DNA from: Psychrobium sp. MM17-31 | Lineage (GTDB): Bacteria > Pseudomonadota > Gammaproteobacteria > Enterobacterales > Psychrobiaceae | Length of the DNA stretch: 64,000 nucleotides | Assembly: GCF_022347785.1 (NCBI RefSeq) | Contig: NZ_JAKRGA010000004.1 | Coordinates: forward strand, 310,001 to 374,000 | Direction of reading: 5' to 3' | Shown here: positions 52,021-62,815 of the stretch, piece by piece | How positions within the stretch are numbered: position 1 is the first letter of the stretch | Layout of the letters: the number at the start of each line of letters is the position of its first letter | Notes under the pieces: generated by a model | What the model was told of the DNA's origin: nothing | The model's input: only the letters and a program-made list of their open reading frames with translations | Database searches by the model: none | Translations under genes and position numbers: made by a program

Positions 52021-52208
52021 ATCAAGAACCTTATCTAACTAGTTGAATCTTACTTGTAAGTGGTACATTGTAATCCATTGGTTGTATTTAATTAAACCTA
52101 AATTGGTTGTTCTGTGAACAATATTGGGTAACTTCAGCATAAGTTAAGTGGAACTTTCGTATGGTTCTTGGCTCTATTTCTATGCGCTACTAATAATAAG
52201 GAGGCAAA

Positions 52209-56847: not shown

Positions 56848-59214
56848 ATGAGTCACAGTGACATAGCGTCCATCGTTGAAGCGGCAAGAGCTAATGCAGT
56901 TTCTGAGCTTGCGCTTGTTGATACACTGCCCGAAGAACGTTTTGATCGCATTGTTCGCCTAGCAATGGCATTGATGGAAATGCCATATTCCTTTGTTAAC
57001 TTAGTTGATAAAGAGCGTATTTGGGCAAAAGCGACCTTCAATCAAAAAGATTACGAAAGTACTCGCGACCAATCTATTTGTAATTTCGCTATTCGCAATC
57101 CTTTGCCTACAGTTATCGAAGACACCTTACTCGATGACAATGTTCATCATTTAAATTACGTTGTTAGCACGCCTAAGTTCCGTTGTTATGTAGGGATCCC
57201 ACTTATTTATGCGGGAGAAATTGTTGGTGCCTTATGTACTTTAGATACTAAGCCGCGCAAAATTCCAGCGCAAAAAGTTCAGCTGCTTAGCGATTTAGCA
57301 AAAGTGGTCGAAAGTGAATTTCAAAATGTTCAACTAGAGCAAGAATCTCATGGCTTGCGAGCGCAGAAAAAAGCATGGCGCGATCTATCCACCAAACTGC
57401 ACGGTAATGATCAGCTTAGCGGGTTGCGCAGTCACGCGTTAGAGCTGGTGGCGCAAGGGACACCGCTTAAATCGACTTTTCATGAAATGATCGCCGGCGT
57501 TGAGCGTGAGTTTCCCGAGATGATTTGTAGTATTTTGATTCTCGATGATGACTCGGAGCACGTCGTTCGTTGTTATGGACCATCATTACCAGATGCCTAT
57601 AACAAAGCGTTAATAGGTTTAAAAATTGGCCATGGTGTGGGCTCTTGTGGCACTGCTGCCGCGACAGCCGAGCGGGTGGTTGTTAGCGATATTTTCAATC
57701 ATGAATATTGGAGTGATTATTTGGCGCTAGCCGAAATGGCTGGCGTTGGTGCTTGTTGGTCTGAGCCTATTTTGAGTAGCGATGGCAAAGTACTCGGAAC
57801 CTTTGCTATCTATCATCGAGAGATTCGTGAACCGCAAGAAATTGAATTTCGCCTAATCGAACAAACTGCACATCTAGCCTCGATTGCAATCGAACGCGAT
57901 CGCGCCAATAAGCTCATTTGGCAACAAGCCAATTATGATGCGCTAACTGGGTTACCAAATCGCGAATTAAGTGCCGTGCACATTAATGTTGCTATCAATA
58001 ATGCGACTCGCAACAAACAAAAGTTTGCGCTGATGTTTTTGGATTTAGACCGCTTTAAAGAAGTTAATGATACGCTTGGCCATGACGCTGGGGATTTATT
58101 ATTGATCGAGGCATCTAGAAGAATTCAAAATTGTGTTCGAGCGAGTGATTCGGTAGCGCGCTTGGGTGGTGATGAATTCGTAGTGTTGCTCAATGATGTC
58201 CGTGGTGAAAAAGGGGTTGAGAAAGTCGCTAGTAATATTTTGCAGGCGTTAACAGACCCTTTTCAACTCAATGAAGATATCGCGCATGTGTCGGCTAGTA
58301 TTGGGATTACTTTCTTCCCTGATGACGGCAAAGGACTCGATGAGCTGATGAAAAATGCTGACCAGGCAATGTATCAAGCTAAAGAGTCTGGTCGCGATCG
58401 CTTTAGCTATTTTACTAATGAGCTGCGTGAAGAAGCCAATGAACGTCGTCAATTATCTGAAGATTTACGTCGCGCCATTAAAGAAGATGAACTAGTACTG
58501 CACTACCAGCCAGTGGTTGACCTTAAATCAGGAAAAATAATCGGCGCTGAAGCATTATTGCGTTGGCAACATCCCACTCGTGGCATGTTATATCCAGATG
58601 ATTTTATTGAGCTAAGTGATGAAACTGGACAAACATTCCCGTTGACTCACTGGGTTGTTAAGAAAGCGATATCTCAATCGATGATTTGGCGAGAGGTGGC
58701 TGGGGAAGCCTTTAAAATTTGCGTCAATACATCGCTGCGTCAATACACAGATAATAGCCGTCACAGTGAGCACTGGCTAACAGAATTAGAAGCGCATAAA
58801 GATAAAGCAAACAATATTATCTTTGAAGTTAGCGAACAGCTATTGGTGAACCCAACCGACGATATTATTGCTAATATTGAACGTATAAAGGCTTGTGGCA
58901 TTGAGTTAGCTATTGATGATTTTGGCGCAGGATATTCTTCGCTGGCCTTTATTAAAGAGCTTGGTATTGATTATTTGAAAATTGATAAGCAGTTTATCGC
59001 TAATGTCGCGGCAACTAAAGATGGCCAAGTACTTTGTGAAGCGATTCTTGCGATGGCAACTAAGCTGGGTACAAAAGTGGTGGCAGAAGGGATTGAGCAG
59101 CCACAGCAACTACAAGTACTGCAGCATATTGGTTGTGAGTTTGGCCAAGGCTATTACCTAGCTTATCCACTTACAGCGCAAGTATTTTCAGAGCGCCTCG
59201 CGCAGCAAAGCTAA
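56848..59214 (+). CDS. GAF-GAF-GGDEF-EAL c-di-GMP signalling protein
   Basis: The 788-residue cytosolic protein has two GAF-type sensor domains (about 20-165 with NFAIRNPLPTVIEDTLLD; about 200-350 with GHGVGSCGTAAATAERVVVS), then a GGDEF domain with intact RLGGDEF (Gly440) and an EAL domain with intact EAL at residues 568-570. The GGDEF domain has the LDLDRFKEVND metal site. The EAL signatures VNTSLRQ, EVSEQLL, IDDFGAGYSS, KIDKQF and AEGIEQ are kept. Both synthesis and hydrolysis of c-di-GMP are therefore possible, with the balance set by the GAF ligand. The GAF ligand is not known. A terminator follows at 59240. Confidence 0.93.
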   Translation: MSHSDIASIVEAARANAVSELALVDTLPEERFDRIVRLAMALMEMPYSFVNLVDKERIWAKATFNQKDYESTRDQSICNFAIRNPLPTVIEDTLLDDNVHHLNYVVSTPKFRCYVGIPLIYAGEIVGALCTLDTKPRKIPAQKVQLLSDLAKVVESEFQNVQLEQESHGLRAQKKAWRDLSTKLHGNDQLSGLRSHALELVAQGTPLKSTFHEMIAGVEREFPEMICSILILDDDSEHVVRCYGPSLPDAYNKALIGLKIGHGVGSCGTAAATAERVVVSDIFNHEYWSDYLALAEMAGVGACWSEPILSSDGKVLGTFAIYHREIREPQEIEFRLIEQTAHLASIAIERDRANKLIWQQANYDALTGLPNRELSAVHINVAINNATRNKQKFALMFLDLDRFKEVNDTLGHDAGDLLLIEASRRIQNCVRASDSVARLGGDEFVVLLNDVRGEKGVEKVASNILQALTDPFQLNEDIAHVSASIGITFFPDDGKGLDELMKNADQAMYQAKESGRDRFSYFTNELREEANERRQLSEDLRRAIKEDELVLHYQPVVDLKSGKIIGAEALLRWQHPTRGMLYPDDFIELSDETGQTFPLTHWVVKKAISQSMIWREVAGEAFKICVNTSLRQYTDNSRHSEHWLTELEAHKDKANNIIFEVSEQLLVNPTDDIIANIERIKACGIELAIDDFGAGYSSLAFIKELGIDYLKIDKQFIANVAATKDGQVLCEAILAMATKLGTKVVAEGIEQPQQLQVLQHIGCEFGQGYYLAYPLTAQVFSERLAQQS

Positions 59215-59239
59215 AAAGTAACCCTAGCTCTGAATACTA

Positions 59240-59272
59240 AAAAACCAAGTGAATTCACTTGGTTTTTTTATT
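59240..59272. terminator. Bidirectional terminator
   Basis: AAAACCAAGTGAATTCACTTGGTTTT is an extended palindrome with As before and Ts after. It ends the EAL gene and the convergent small gene. Confidence 0.85.
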
Positions 59273-59279
59273 AGGTCTA

Positions 59280-59510
59280 TTAATGATCCCACTCTTCTTC
59301 AATAAGACGGCGCAATTCTCGCTGTTCATTTATTTCATCAATTCTTGCTCTAATAGCACGTCGTTTAGCGACGCTAGAACGCTTTCGTGGTGATTCAGTT
59401 ACTTCAAATGCTGAGTCATAAATAATGTCTTGGGTTTGGTCATCGTTGATATCACGCATAACTACCTCACTATCTACAAGTTGTTTTAATAACTTCTTAA
59501 GTATAGACAC
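59280..59510 (-). CDS. PA3496-like small protein
   Basis: The 76-residue product has the Arg-rich C-terminus typical of PA3496-like proteins: RKRSSVAKRRAIRARIDEIN followed by EQRELRRLIEEEWDH. A second ATG (residue 18, MRDINDDQTQD, about 59459) is an alternative start. Function is unknown; family members are conserved in gammaproteobacteria. It is convergent with the GGDEF-EAL gene. Confidence 0.7.
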   Translation of the reverse strand: MSILKKLLKQLVDSEVVMRDINDDQTQDIIYDSAFEVTESPRKRSSVAKRRAIRARIDEINEQRELRRLIEEEWDH

Positions 59511-59565
59511 AGAATATGACTAAAAAGTTACACCATTTAATTTGCGAGGTAAATTTTAAATAGAC

Positions 59566-59658
59566 AAAAAAACCGAGTCGATTATTTAAAATGGACTCGG
59601 TACAAGGAAATGTAACTTAAGGAGATAACTAACTACATTTTGTTAGTCAGTGGTCAGT
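59566..59658 (-). ncRNA. sRNA-like unit 1 (farthest from polA)
   Basis: Read on the minus strand it runs from the CTGACCACTGAC start to a terminator ACCGAGTC...GACTCGGT with seven Ts. The stem arms are at 59594-59600 and 59573-59579. A single-stranded segment contains TTATCTCCTTAAGTTA and TTTCCTTG, i.e. C/U-rich sequences able to pair with Shine-Dalgarno regions. It is nearly identical to unit 2 in the core. Confidence 0.7.
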
Positions 59659-59719
59659 TGAAAAAGTTCATCAACTTAATGAATATTTTTTAGGGGATGT
59701 AATTTGGCGGAAACAGGGC

Positions 59720-59814
59720 AAAAAAAACCGAGTCGATTATTTAAAATGGACTCGGTACAAGGAAATGTAACTTAAGGAGATAACTAACTACATTTTGTTA
59801 GTCAGTGGCCAGTC
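59720..59814 (-). ncRNA. sRNA-like unit 2
   Basis: The minus-strand unit has the same core and terminator arms (59749-59755 with 59728-59734) followed by eight Ts. It is identical to unit 1 over more than 80 bases around the core, then diverges in the upstream spacer. Confidence 0.7.
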
Positions 59815-59863
59815 GATAAAGTTCATCAGTTTTATAAATAATTTTCTAAGAAGAATTTAAGGC

Positions 59864-59958
59864 AAAAAAAACGAGTCGATTTTTTTCAAAACGACTCGTC
59901 ACAAGGAAATATAACTTAAGGAGATAACTAACTACATTTCATTAGTCAGCCCCCAGTC
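59864..59958 (-). ncRNA. sRNA-like unit 3 (closest to polA)
   Basis: This minus-strand unit keeps the TTATCTCCTTAAGTTA and TTTCCTTGT core, but its terminator arms differ (CGAGTCG/CGACTCG, 59892-59898 with 59872-59878). Both arms changed together, preserving pairing, which is strong evidence that the hairpin is functional. Upstream, TTGATC at about 59993-59998 is a possible -35. Confidence 0.7.
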
Positions 59959-60007
59959 AAATTAGTTCACTTAAGATGTAAATTATTTTAAGCGATCAAG
60001 TTTTCAG

Positions 60008-62815
60008 TTAGTGCGCCTGCTGCCAGTTGTCACCAGAGCCAGCTTCCGCAACCAATGGTACGTCTAAATCTGCGGCTTGCGACATCAGTTGTGCAACGTC
60101 TTTGTTAAACTGCTCAACTTTGTCTGCTTGCACCTCAAACACTAATTCATCGTGTACCTGCATGATCATGGTTGCTAGTTCACTTGGCTGCGCTTTGAGC
60201 CAATCGCTCACTAATAGCATGGCTTTCTTTATGATATCAGCCGCGGTACCTTGCATCGGCGCGTTGATTGCGGCGCGTTCCGCTGCCTTACGGCGAGCAC
60301 CGTTACTTGCTTTGATGTCAGGCAAATACAGACGGCGACCGTCAAGCGTCTCAACATAGCCTTTGTCGGCAGCATTGGTGCGGGTGTCTTCCATGTATTG
60401 CATTACGCCCGGGTATTTGTCGAAGTAGCTATCGATGTATTGCTGCGCGAGGCCACGTGGAATATCGAGTTGTTTCGATAAACCAAAGGCTGACATGCCG
60501 TAAATTAAACCGAAGTTTACGGCTTTAGCGCTGCGACGTTGATCGTCAGACACTTCATCAAATGGCGTGTTAAATACTTCAGAAGCCGTTGCGCGGTGAA
60601 TGTCGAGATCGTTAGCAAAGGCTTTTAACAAGCCTTCGTCTTGTGACAAGTGCGCCATGATGCGAAGTTCGATTTGGCTGTAATCGATAGCGACAACTTT
60701 GTATCCGTCGCGGGCAACAAAGGCTTGGCGAATACGCTTGCCTTCGTTTGAGCGAATTGGAATGTTCTGTAAGTTAGGATCTGTCGACGATAAACGACCC
60801 GTTGCCGTTACTGCTTGATGGTAGCTAGTGTGAACACGGCCAGTGTCAGCGTTAATCATTAGCGGCAGTTTGTCGGTGTAGGTTGATTTGAGCTTAGTTA
60901 AGCTGCGGTATTCCAAGATAACTTTTGGTAGCTCGTAGTCGTGCGCTAACTCCTGTAGCACTTCCTCATTGGTTGAAGGCGCGCCTTTTGGCGTTTTCTT
61001 GATAATTGGCAATGCCATTTTATCTTCGTCGAACAAGATTTCTTGCAGCTGCTTAGTTGAACCTAGTTTGAATTCTTGACCCGCTAATTGCCATGCCTGT
61101 TGCTCTAACTCGTCGATGCGTGTTGCTAATTCGCCACTTTGGGCAAACAGCTGAGTGTCATCGATTAATACGCCATTGCGTTCCATGTCTGCTAATACAG
61201 GCAATAATGGCATTTCAATAGTGTCATAGAGTTTGCGCAGGCTTGGCTCGCCATCTAAGCGCTCAATCAGGTTGTGGTGCAGACGTAGGGTAATGTCGGC
61301 ATCTTCTGCAGCATAAGGTGCTGCTTCGCTGATCTTAATTTGATTAAAGGTTAACTGTTTTGCGCCTTTACCAGCGATATCTTCAAACTTAATGGTTTTA
61401 TGGCCAAGGTATTTCAGCGATAGCGCATCCATGTTGTGCTTAACGGCGGTTGAGTTAAACACATAAGAAGCTAGCATGGTGTCGTGACTAATGCCGTTTA
61501 AGGTAATATCGTAGTTTTTAAGCACATTGCGATCGTATTTTAGGTTTTGACCGATCTTCTTCAGGGATTCATCTTCTAACAGCGGCTTGAACTTCTCTAG
61601 TGCCATCTCTAGCGAGATTTGCTTCGGTGCATCTTCGTAATCATGAGCCAATGGTAGGTAGGCGGCTTCGAACTCATCGCCATTCTCTCCATCACGTTTT
61701 ATCGCAAACGACATACCGACGATTTTGGCCTGCATGTAATCGAGGCTAGTGGTTTCTAAATCAAAGGCAAATTCTTTTGCTTCTGTTAGTTTGCGAATCC
61801 ATTGCATTAATTGACCTAGTGTATAAAGCACTGGGTAGTTATTGGTTTTAATGCTTGATGTCGGCGCATCATCTGAGCCTGATGCGGTGGCTGCGCGCGG
61901 TGCACCGTCGCCACCAACACCTAATGGGTTGCGACCATCTAAGGCCTCGGCCAGCCAACGCTTAAATTCTAATTGGCCTAAGATCTCGATGATCTTGTCG
62001 AGATCAGGTTTAGCCATTACAAAATCTTTGTGCTCTTGCTCTAATTCAACATCGAGTTTAATTGTCGCTAGCTCGTAAGATAGGCGCGCCATTTCTTCGT
62101 GCTCTAGCATGCGCTTACCTATGGTTTTTGCGCCGCGGAAGCTTAATGTCGCTAGCTTGTCGATGTTGTTGTAAATATCATTAATGCTACCAATACCTTG
62201 TAGCATGCCTAGCGCGGTTTTCTCACCAACTTTTGGTACACCCGGAATGTTATCAGAGCTATCACCCATTAGGCCTAAGAAGTCGATAATTAGCTCTGGT
62301 GGCACACCAAATTTCTCAACGACGCCTTCGCGATCCAGTATCGTATTAGTCATGGTATTGATTAGCGTAGTGTTTTCGTCGACCAGCTGCGCCATGTCTT
62401 TGTCACCAGTACTAATCAGCGTGTGGATGCCTTGCTTACTGGCTTGTGTTGCTAGAGTACCGATAACATCGTCGGCCTCGACGCCTGGGATCGAAATTAA
62501 TGGAATCCCCATTGCTTTGATCAAGTTGTGCAGTGGTTCGATTTGAATGCGTAGATCGTCTGGCATTGGCGGACGATTTGCTTTGTACTCACTGTAAAGA
62601 TCGTTTCTAAAGGTTGGCCCTTTAGCATCAAAAACAACCACCATATTGGTAGGCTGATATTGGTTGATCAACGATCGTAACATGTTGATCACGCCATAGA
62701 CGGCACCAGTCGCTTCGCCTTTTGAATTGGTTAAATGAGGCGGCGCAAAAAACGCGCGAAATAAATAGGATGATCCATCAACTAAGACGAAAGGATTTTC
62801 TTTTACGTTGGCCAT
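60008..62815 (-). CDS. polA: DNA polymerase I
   Basis: PolA repairs gaps and removes Okazaki primers. The 935-residue product has the three domains: 5'-3' exonuclease (about 1-300, [38 protein letters not shown]); 3'-5' proofreading exonuclease (about 330-525) with the acidic residues [18 protein letters not shown] and [10 protein letters not shown] all present; and polymerase (about 540-935) with the [30 protein letters not shown] and QVHDELVFE motifs. It should be fully active. The sRNA-like units lie directly downstream, in the position where enterobacteria carry spf (Spot 42). Confidence 0.98.

Follow-up and report, generated by a model that had tools for sequence, protein, structure and literature searches.

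Three tandem units downstream of polA

The window, that is, the whole 64,000-nt stretch of Psychrobium sp. MM17-31 DNA that was analysed (genome G000 below), contains three direct repeats (59566-59690, 59721-59845, and 59865-59989), all on the minus strand, as is polA. In ungapped comparison with the first repeat, the second is 94% and the third 71% identical; the 94% identity of units 1 and 2 holds across 125 nt including the promoter region, and unit 3 is more diverged. The features of the locus are as follows.

59280..59459, minus: PA3496-family putative envelope integrity protein, a small gene downstream of the units (NF046101 of NCBIfam, 26.1 bits, cut-off 22)
59566..59636, minus: predicted unit 1 sRNA (polA-distal), 71 nt, 5' GTAG at 59636, the +1 being placed from the promoter register
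59572..59601, minus: unit 1 terminator hairpin, then U tract
59643..59648, minus: unit 1 -10 box, GACTAA
59665..59670, minus: unit 1 -35 box, TGAACT
59720..59791, minus: predicted unit 2 sRNA, 72 nt, body as in unit 1 except for the count of final U
59798..59803, minus: unit 2 -10 box, GACTAA
59820..59825, minus: unit 2 -35 box, TGAACT
59864..59935, minus: predicted unit 3 sRNA (polA-proximal), 72 nt, altered terminator stem
59942..59947, minus: unit 3 -10 box, GACTAA
59964..59969, minus: unit 3 -35 box, TGAACT, 38 nt past the polA stop
60008..62815, minus: polA, upstream neighbour, an ORF named from reading of the sequence

A sequence-only reading of this DNA had described three tandem sRNA-like genes, and three direct minus-strand units, each with an intrinsic terminator, are indeed present. 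It had also read each unit as a ~93-95-nt RNA; such an RNA takes in TGACTAAC, which is better read as the -10 region of a promoter (see below), so that its 5' end lies ~20 nt too far upstream. The RNA made from each unit is most likely 71-72 nt long and starts 5'-GUAGUUAGUUAUCUC. A Csr-like reading of the plus strand, with AAGGA motifs, was dropped, since only on the minus strand does U follow the hairpins. Further along, a palindrome (AAAAAACCAAGTGAATTCACTTGGTTTTTTT, 59240-59270) between a GGDEF/EAL-type ORF and the PA3496-family gene reads as a bidirectional terminator.

Conservation in Psychrobiaceae

The unit is present in all nine Psychrobiaceae genomes examined (all of one genus), which together hold 14 units at one to three per genome: three in G000, two each in G001, G005, and G007, and one each in G002, G003, G004, G006, and G008. 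A DNA search recovered the unit in eight of the nine; G004 was added by a covariance model derived from 13 units (alignment A2), with which all nine genomes gave the unit. In every one of these genomes, the first unit begins 52-124 nt past the polA stop on the same strand, with the same polA C-terminal end upstream, and because of this recurrence the units cannot be put down to chance.

Searching 394 genomes of the order with the covariance model, under stricter filters meant for many genomes, gave the nine Psychrobiaceae genomes, nine others with weak matches, and 376 with none. Conservation among relatives thus held throughout the family, and outside it there were weak matches only, in 9 of 385 genomes (10 matches, E 0.0018-0.079). 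Nine of these 10 (all but a second place in G029) were inspected and showed neither the two boxes within 100 nt upstream nor a polA C-terminus within ~1.5 kb upstream; on these grounds, we judge these nine to be chance.

No Rfam family matched anywhere in the window at the gathering threshold, and none of the papers listed by literature searches on Psychrobium, on σE and small RNAs in related genera, and on tandem σE siblings described this RNA. We take the units to form a genuine sRNA family whose sequence is new, to judge by Rfam and these listed papers.

Anatomy of the predicted RNA and covariation in its terminator

The best-conserved part of the predicted RNA is its 5' block, GTAGTTAGTTATCTC, which 11 of the 13 A2 units keep without change (the exceptions being TTATTTC in G008 and an extra A in G002); the 14th unit, that of G004, begins GTGATTAGTTATCTC. 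Next comes a linker that varies in sequence and length, and then ATTTCCTTGTNCC, which precedes the terminator and is less strictly kept (altered in unit 3 of G000 and in G007_b, G008, G002, and G004). The earlier proposal that an internal CU-rich stretch is the pairing region therefore does not fit the alignment, in which the 5' end GTAGTTAGTTATCTC is conserved instead. Its anti-Shine-Dalgarno-like core, CCTTAAGTTA, does exist in the linker of four of the nine genomes (G000, G001, G007, and G008), but it is not the most conserved part of the RNA.

In the genus-wide alignment, for seven of the eight pairs of the terminator stem there is one unit or more in which both partners have changed, and a U tract is present in all 14 units; the units thus carry the conserved hairpin and U tract of a trans-acting sRNA with an intrinsic terminator. 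Unit 3 of G000 has A-U at a position that is C-G in 12 of the 13 aligned units, so that the compensated terminator singled out by the sequence-only reading is real and is one case of a covariation that runs through the genus.

A σE-type promoter upstream of each unit

Upstream of the RNA, at a fixed distance, stands TGAACT-N15-TGACTAA, unchanged in 14 of 14 units except for one TGAACC (G006), whereas the 15 columns between the boxes have pairwise identities of 0.22-0.64. These boxes, which the sequence-only reading had missed, have the geometry GAACTW-N16-ACTAA-6 nt-GTAG (5 nt in G005 and G003, GAACC in G006). The same register is found upstream of the rpoE genes of the genus, all nine of which have GAACTT-N16-TCTAY ~85 nt 5' of the start codon; the nine rpoE products exceed the cut-off of the RpoE model, and in G000 a gene with both RseA domains (rseA) directly follows rpoE. 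For E. coli, counted to the 5' ends of rybB and micA, the promoters read GAACTT-N16-TCTTA-6 nt-+1 (rybB, by eye) and GAACTC-N16-TCTGA-6 nt-+1 (micA). At the level of sequence, the units therefore have the promoter expected of σE-dependent sRNAs, as judged against rpoE in nine of nine genomes and E. coli rybB and micA, with a difference in the first base of the -10, which is A rather than T (ACTAA versus TCTAY at rpoE). The pattern is rare: TGAACTW-N16-ACTAAY occurs four times on both strands of 464 kb of G000, and three of the occurrences are the units.

Conserved boxes around a diverged spacer are better read as a σE (RpoE) promoter than as a transcribed element, and the comparisons support this reading well. 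Because the register matches that of rybB, micA, and rpoE, σE would be expected to initiate at the very base where the strongest conservation of the RNA sets in, and the best-conserved segment would thus begin at +1, as in σE sRNAs with a 5'-end seed. Elsewhere in the window, a σE-type match (GAACTT-N16-TCTA, 52151-52176, plus strand) lies ~58 nt 5' of a 167-aa ORF with an exported-protein-like start.

The main rival to the σE reading is that the RNA is ~93 nt long, starts further upstream, and opens with a 5' hairpin (TGACTAAC-loop-GTTAGTTA), TGACTAA being an RNA stem rather than a -10 box. An 8-bp stem between TGACTAAC and GTTAGTTA, with one or two G-U pairs, can form in 13 of the 14 units, and 7 pairs in the 14th, with a loop of varying length. 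Seven of the eight pairs never vary, however, and the eighth (C-G in nine units, U-G in four, unpaired in one) shows no double change, so that covariation lends the stem no support; moreover, when the region was shuffled 3000 times, 6.7% of the shuffles contained an inverted repeat as large. By eye, no conserved promoter precedes a ~93-nt start in the 14 units, and a transcribed stem leaves the fixed distance to TGAACT unexplained. We consider this longer RNA unlikely, while granting it a modest chance. The inverted repeat itself (TGACTAAC...GTTAGTTA, 59626-59649 in unit 1 and at the same place in the others) spans the -10 box and the 5' end of the RNA; that it forms a DNA operator is unlikely because the spacing of its arms varies between 7 and 9 nt.

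If the 71-72-nt sRNA is accepted, its driver might still be another ECF sigma factor, or σ70 with an activator. G000 has 14 matches to the RpoE model, one of them above the cut-off, and the -10 of the units differs from the rpoE one. Against this stand the GAACT box, the exact 16-nt spacing, and the ~6 nt to +1 that the units have in common with E. coli rybB and micA, the spacing being common also to the rpoE promoters; in addition, the sole minus-strand σ70-like match in the scan falls inside the unit 1 terminator. A different driver thus seems to us rather improbable.

The position behind polA suggests a further origin, in which the polA mRNA, ending at the terminators of the units, would be processed by RNase E to give the RNAs as its 3'-end products (type II 3'UTR sRNAs). 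The units follow polA in nine of nine genomes, the -35 box of unit 3 lies only 38 nt past the polA stop, and no terminator was seen between polA and unit 3; a minus-strand terminator scan of 59200-60200 likewise found none, which is weak evidence since the scan also missed the terminators of the units. Yet every unit, the second and third included, has promoter boxes of its own. We give this origin a low probability as the explanation of the RNAs; it could also coexist with transcription from σE promoters.

The units are like Spot 42 in position

Given the location after polA, the units might be a highly diverged Spot 42, or else a diverged SdsR. Other families supplied 21 Spot 42 loci (some of them below the Rfam cut-off), which lie after polA in every case but one (20 of 21; the exception is in G053), and the Spot 42 sequence likewise starts GTAG. 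But the Spot 42 model (RF00021, cut-off 80) gave no match at E 0.1 in G000, G001, G002, and G003, and the other five genomes of the family reached at most 26.8 bits, which is noise; above the cut-off, Spot 42 was found in 11 of the 58 genomes searched and in none of the nine Psychrobiaceae. The view of the sequence-only reading that the units are not Spot 42 is thereby borne out. Among 12 matches from a relaxed Rfam search of 59200-60100, SdsR (RF00111) was the one taken seriously, scoring 21.0 bits on unit 1 and 19.3 on unit 2; these scores fall short of the cut-off of 38 bits, and SdsR was rejected because the genome carries its own SdsR elsewhere, at 44 bits. A Spot 42 or SdsR identity is thus largely refuted, and we regard it as highly improbable.

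The downstream gene here is not yihA/engB, so that the locus has only its polA side in common with the classic spf locus. In the other families, no box of σE geometry was found between polA and Spot 42 in any of the 20 polA-linked loci.

Three side observations concern these known RNAs. The SdsR of the genus (in G000 at L050, G000:C1:77914-78004) is divergent, scoring 28.7 to 44 bits across the nine genomes with three above the cut-off, and has a TTCCCCTAAGCTCGG core in the seven loci compared. Spot 42-like RNAs after polA in G009, G034, and G055 (L037-L039) score 38.5-41.6 bits against the cut-off of 80, and genuine Spot 42 RNAs of several families may be lost at that cut-off. In G053, where spf is not behind polA, GGAACTT-N16-ACTAA lies 5' of Spot 42 (L035, reverse complement ~1314-1420), followed ~70 nt on by a terminator-like CCCCGGTATTCGTACTGGGGATTTTTTT; by eye, this element has no sequence likeness to the units, and it is possibly a σE-type sRNA beside spf in another family.

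Predicted pairing with outer-membrane-protein mRNAs

Pairing predictions suggest outer-membrane targets (ompW and porins), which we treat as a lead and not as a result. The target set held 95 outer-membrane-protein genes from nine genomes (26 of 30 Porin_4, 30 of 43 TonB-receptor (G000), 28 of 72 OMP_b-brl, and 11 of 12 Toluene_X matches), matches that lacked a locus being omitted along with seven loci removed manually (L145, L150, L152, L153, L198, L210, and L225); the background comprised 277 genes from 400 kb of G000 alone. A script picked the start codons and, in the outer-membrane set alone, gave a bonus to signal peptides; the thresholds were examined after the fact. Removal of six ortholog duplicates, with diverged porin orthologs retained, left 89 start regions.

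With the first 22 nt of the RNA, 13 of the 89 outer-membrane start regions fell below the 5% quantile of the background, a count that 1 of 150 shuffled RNAs reached (on average, 5.3% of regions fell below the quantile for shuffled RNAs, sd 2.8). With a 15-nt seed, 9 of the 89 did so, again reached by 1 of 150 shuffles, and the mean shift was ordinary (28% of shuffles). At -12 kcal/mol, the same seed showed no enrichment in the G000 set (2 of 39 versus 7 of 277), and the pairing medians of outer-membrane and background genes did not differ for 39 G000 genes (p=0.29), 30 TonB receptors (p=0.59), or 65 non-TonB genes of the nine genomes (p=0.15); by subset, they gave p=0.005 for four Porin_4, p=0.28 for four OMP_b-brl, and p=0.92 for one Toluene_X. 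Genome-wide in G000, sites matching the anti-seed with at most 2 mismatches showed no excess (36, including the 3 units, versus 68 for the reversed control).

Among individual candidates, the ompW genes of G000, G001, and G007 have GGAGATAACTC directly 5' of the ATG, giving 10 pairs with the sRNA, and those of G002, G003, G005, and G006 are without a match to it; the OmpW locus of G008 was left out, having no readable OmpW start. Porin leaders match in G005 (GAGATAACTAAC, 12 pairs) and G003 (AACTAACTAC, 10 pairs). The strongest pairing among the 277 background genes is with the GATAACTAACTGC leader of a gene that by eye is reverse transcriptase-like (L239, G000:C3:360001-380000, minus strand, ~12000 in the reverse complement), which is probably chance.

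Relation to known σE-dependent sRNAs and proposed mechanism

RybB and MicA of E. coli and Salmonella resemble the units in their -35 GAACT, 16 nt, -10 pentamer, and 6 nt to +1, in a length of ~70-80 nt, and in a terminator with a U tail, and in both RNAs the 5' end serves as seed, as it likely does in the units. The units differ from them in having no Rfam match at the gathering threshold, in being limited to one family, and in lying in tandem at another locus. VrrA and MicV of Vibrio, encoded at separate loci, were compared by sequence through the Rfam scan of the window only (Rfam presumably includes VrrA), which gave no match at the gathering threshold. A review describes them as under σE control with a single seed common to both (PMC7602753), in which respects they are like what is predicted for the units, and this review and a research paper describe σE sRNAs as repressing major outer-membrane proteins (PMC7602753, PMC11005410).

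Spot 42 (spf) shares with the units the place directly after polA on the same strand. The two are set apart by their control, the units having a σE-type promoter and E. coli spf being repressed by CRP and cAMP according to PMC3295665. The same paper reports VSsrna24, a glucose-repressed sRNA of ~60 nt in the intergenic region after polA, as limited to Vibrionaceae; compared by description only, it also is an sRNA after polA, with the difference that it lies behind spf (PMC3295665).

The observed units, their conservation, the terminator covariation, and the promoter boxes in their register lead us to favour, with fair though far from full confidence, a Psychrobiaceae-specific family of σE-dependent trans-acting sRNAs, present here in three tandem copies, which probably help tune the outer membrane under stress. 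Within the σE-dependent class, the family most likely represents a member peculiar to this lineage, with a function that we infer. Envelope stress would free σE (RpoE) from RseA, and σE would then transcribe each unit from its own TGAACT-N15-TGACTAA promoter, starting at or near the predicted +1; the ~71-nt RNA would stop at the intrinsic terminator, and its U tail would be expected to bind Hfq. The conserved 5' end GUAGUUAGUUAUCUC may pair with the translation-start regions of outer-membrane-protein mRNAs, the top candidates being ompW (GGAGATAACT adjoining the ATG) and the major porins, the synthesis of which would be lowered, and more copies would give a higher dosage. If this is true, the σE response gains a sequence-unrelated sRNA in its noncoding arm, and does so in a lineage for which the papers listed by our searches describe none.

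Copy history and dosage

Across species, promoters are alike by position, with a likeness of 0.93 between the first copies of G001 and G007 and of 0.80 between unit 2 of G000 and the second copy of G001. Within genomes, the two copies of G001 have bodies alike at 1.00 and promoters at 0.73; for units 1 and 2 of G000, the values are 1.00 and 0.88, and for the G005 pair 0.93 and 0.90. Two results count against general homogenisation: the G007 bodies are 0.85 alike, the first of them being 0.95 like either G001 copy, and the unit 3 body of G000 is 0.86 like those of units 1 and 2. The polA+rpoE tree places G000 with G001 and G007, and G005 with G003 and G006. To judge from these short sequences, one duplication would be old, the third copy of G000 recent, and the G005 pair the product of a duplication of its own; the G001 copies would have been homogenised.

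The idea, raised by the sequence-only reading, that the copies act redundantly or additively is plausible, given that units 1 and 2 have the same body and that copy number varies between species. The tandem near-identical copies recall OmrA/B and PrrF1/2, the latter under the regulator Fur; they are likened here by arrangement, with no homology claimed. In PMC4211561, OmrA and OmrB are tandem sibling sRNAs with their first and last parts in common, and the regulators named, EnvZ/OmpR for OmrA/B and iron for PrrF, differ from that proposed for the units.

More tentatively, the site after polA, occupied by Spot 42 in many families, would in Psychrobiaceae hold an unrelated σE-driven sRNA that has been duplicated more than once (the old pair of G000, G001, and G007, the later third copy of G000, and the separate G005 pair), each copy with its own promoter and the G001 bodies kept identical despite differing promoters, which may reflect selection for the dosage of a single envelope-stress seed. 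We hold this to be a possibility falling somewhat short of an even chance, and lowered it in view of the G007 pair, whose bodies are not homogenised. The genus offers a natural series of one, two, and three copies of one sRNA with clean comparisons of promoter and body, and the dosage question, whether σE stress selects for more copies of one seed, is therefore testable.
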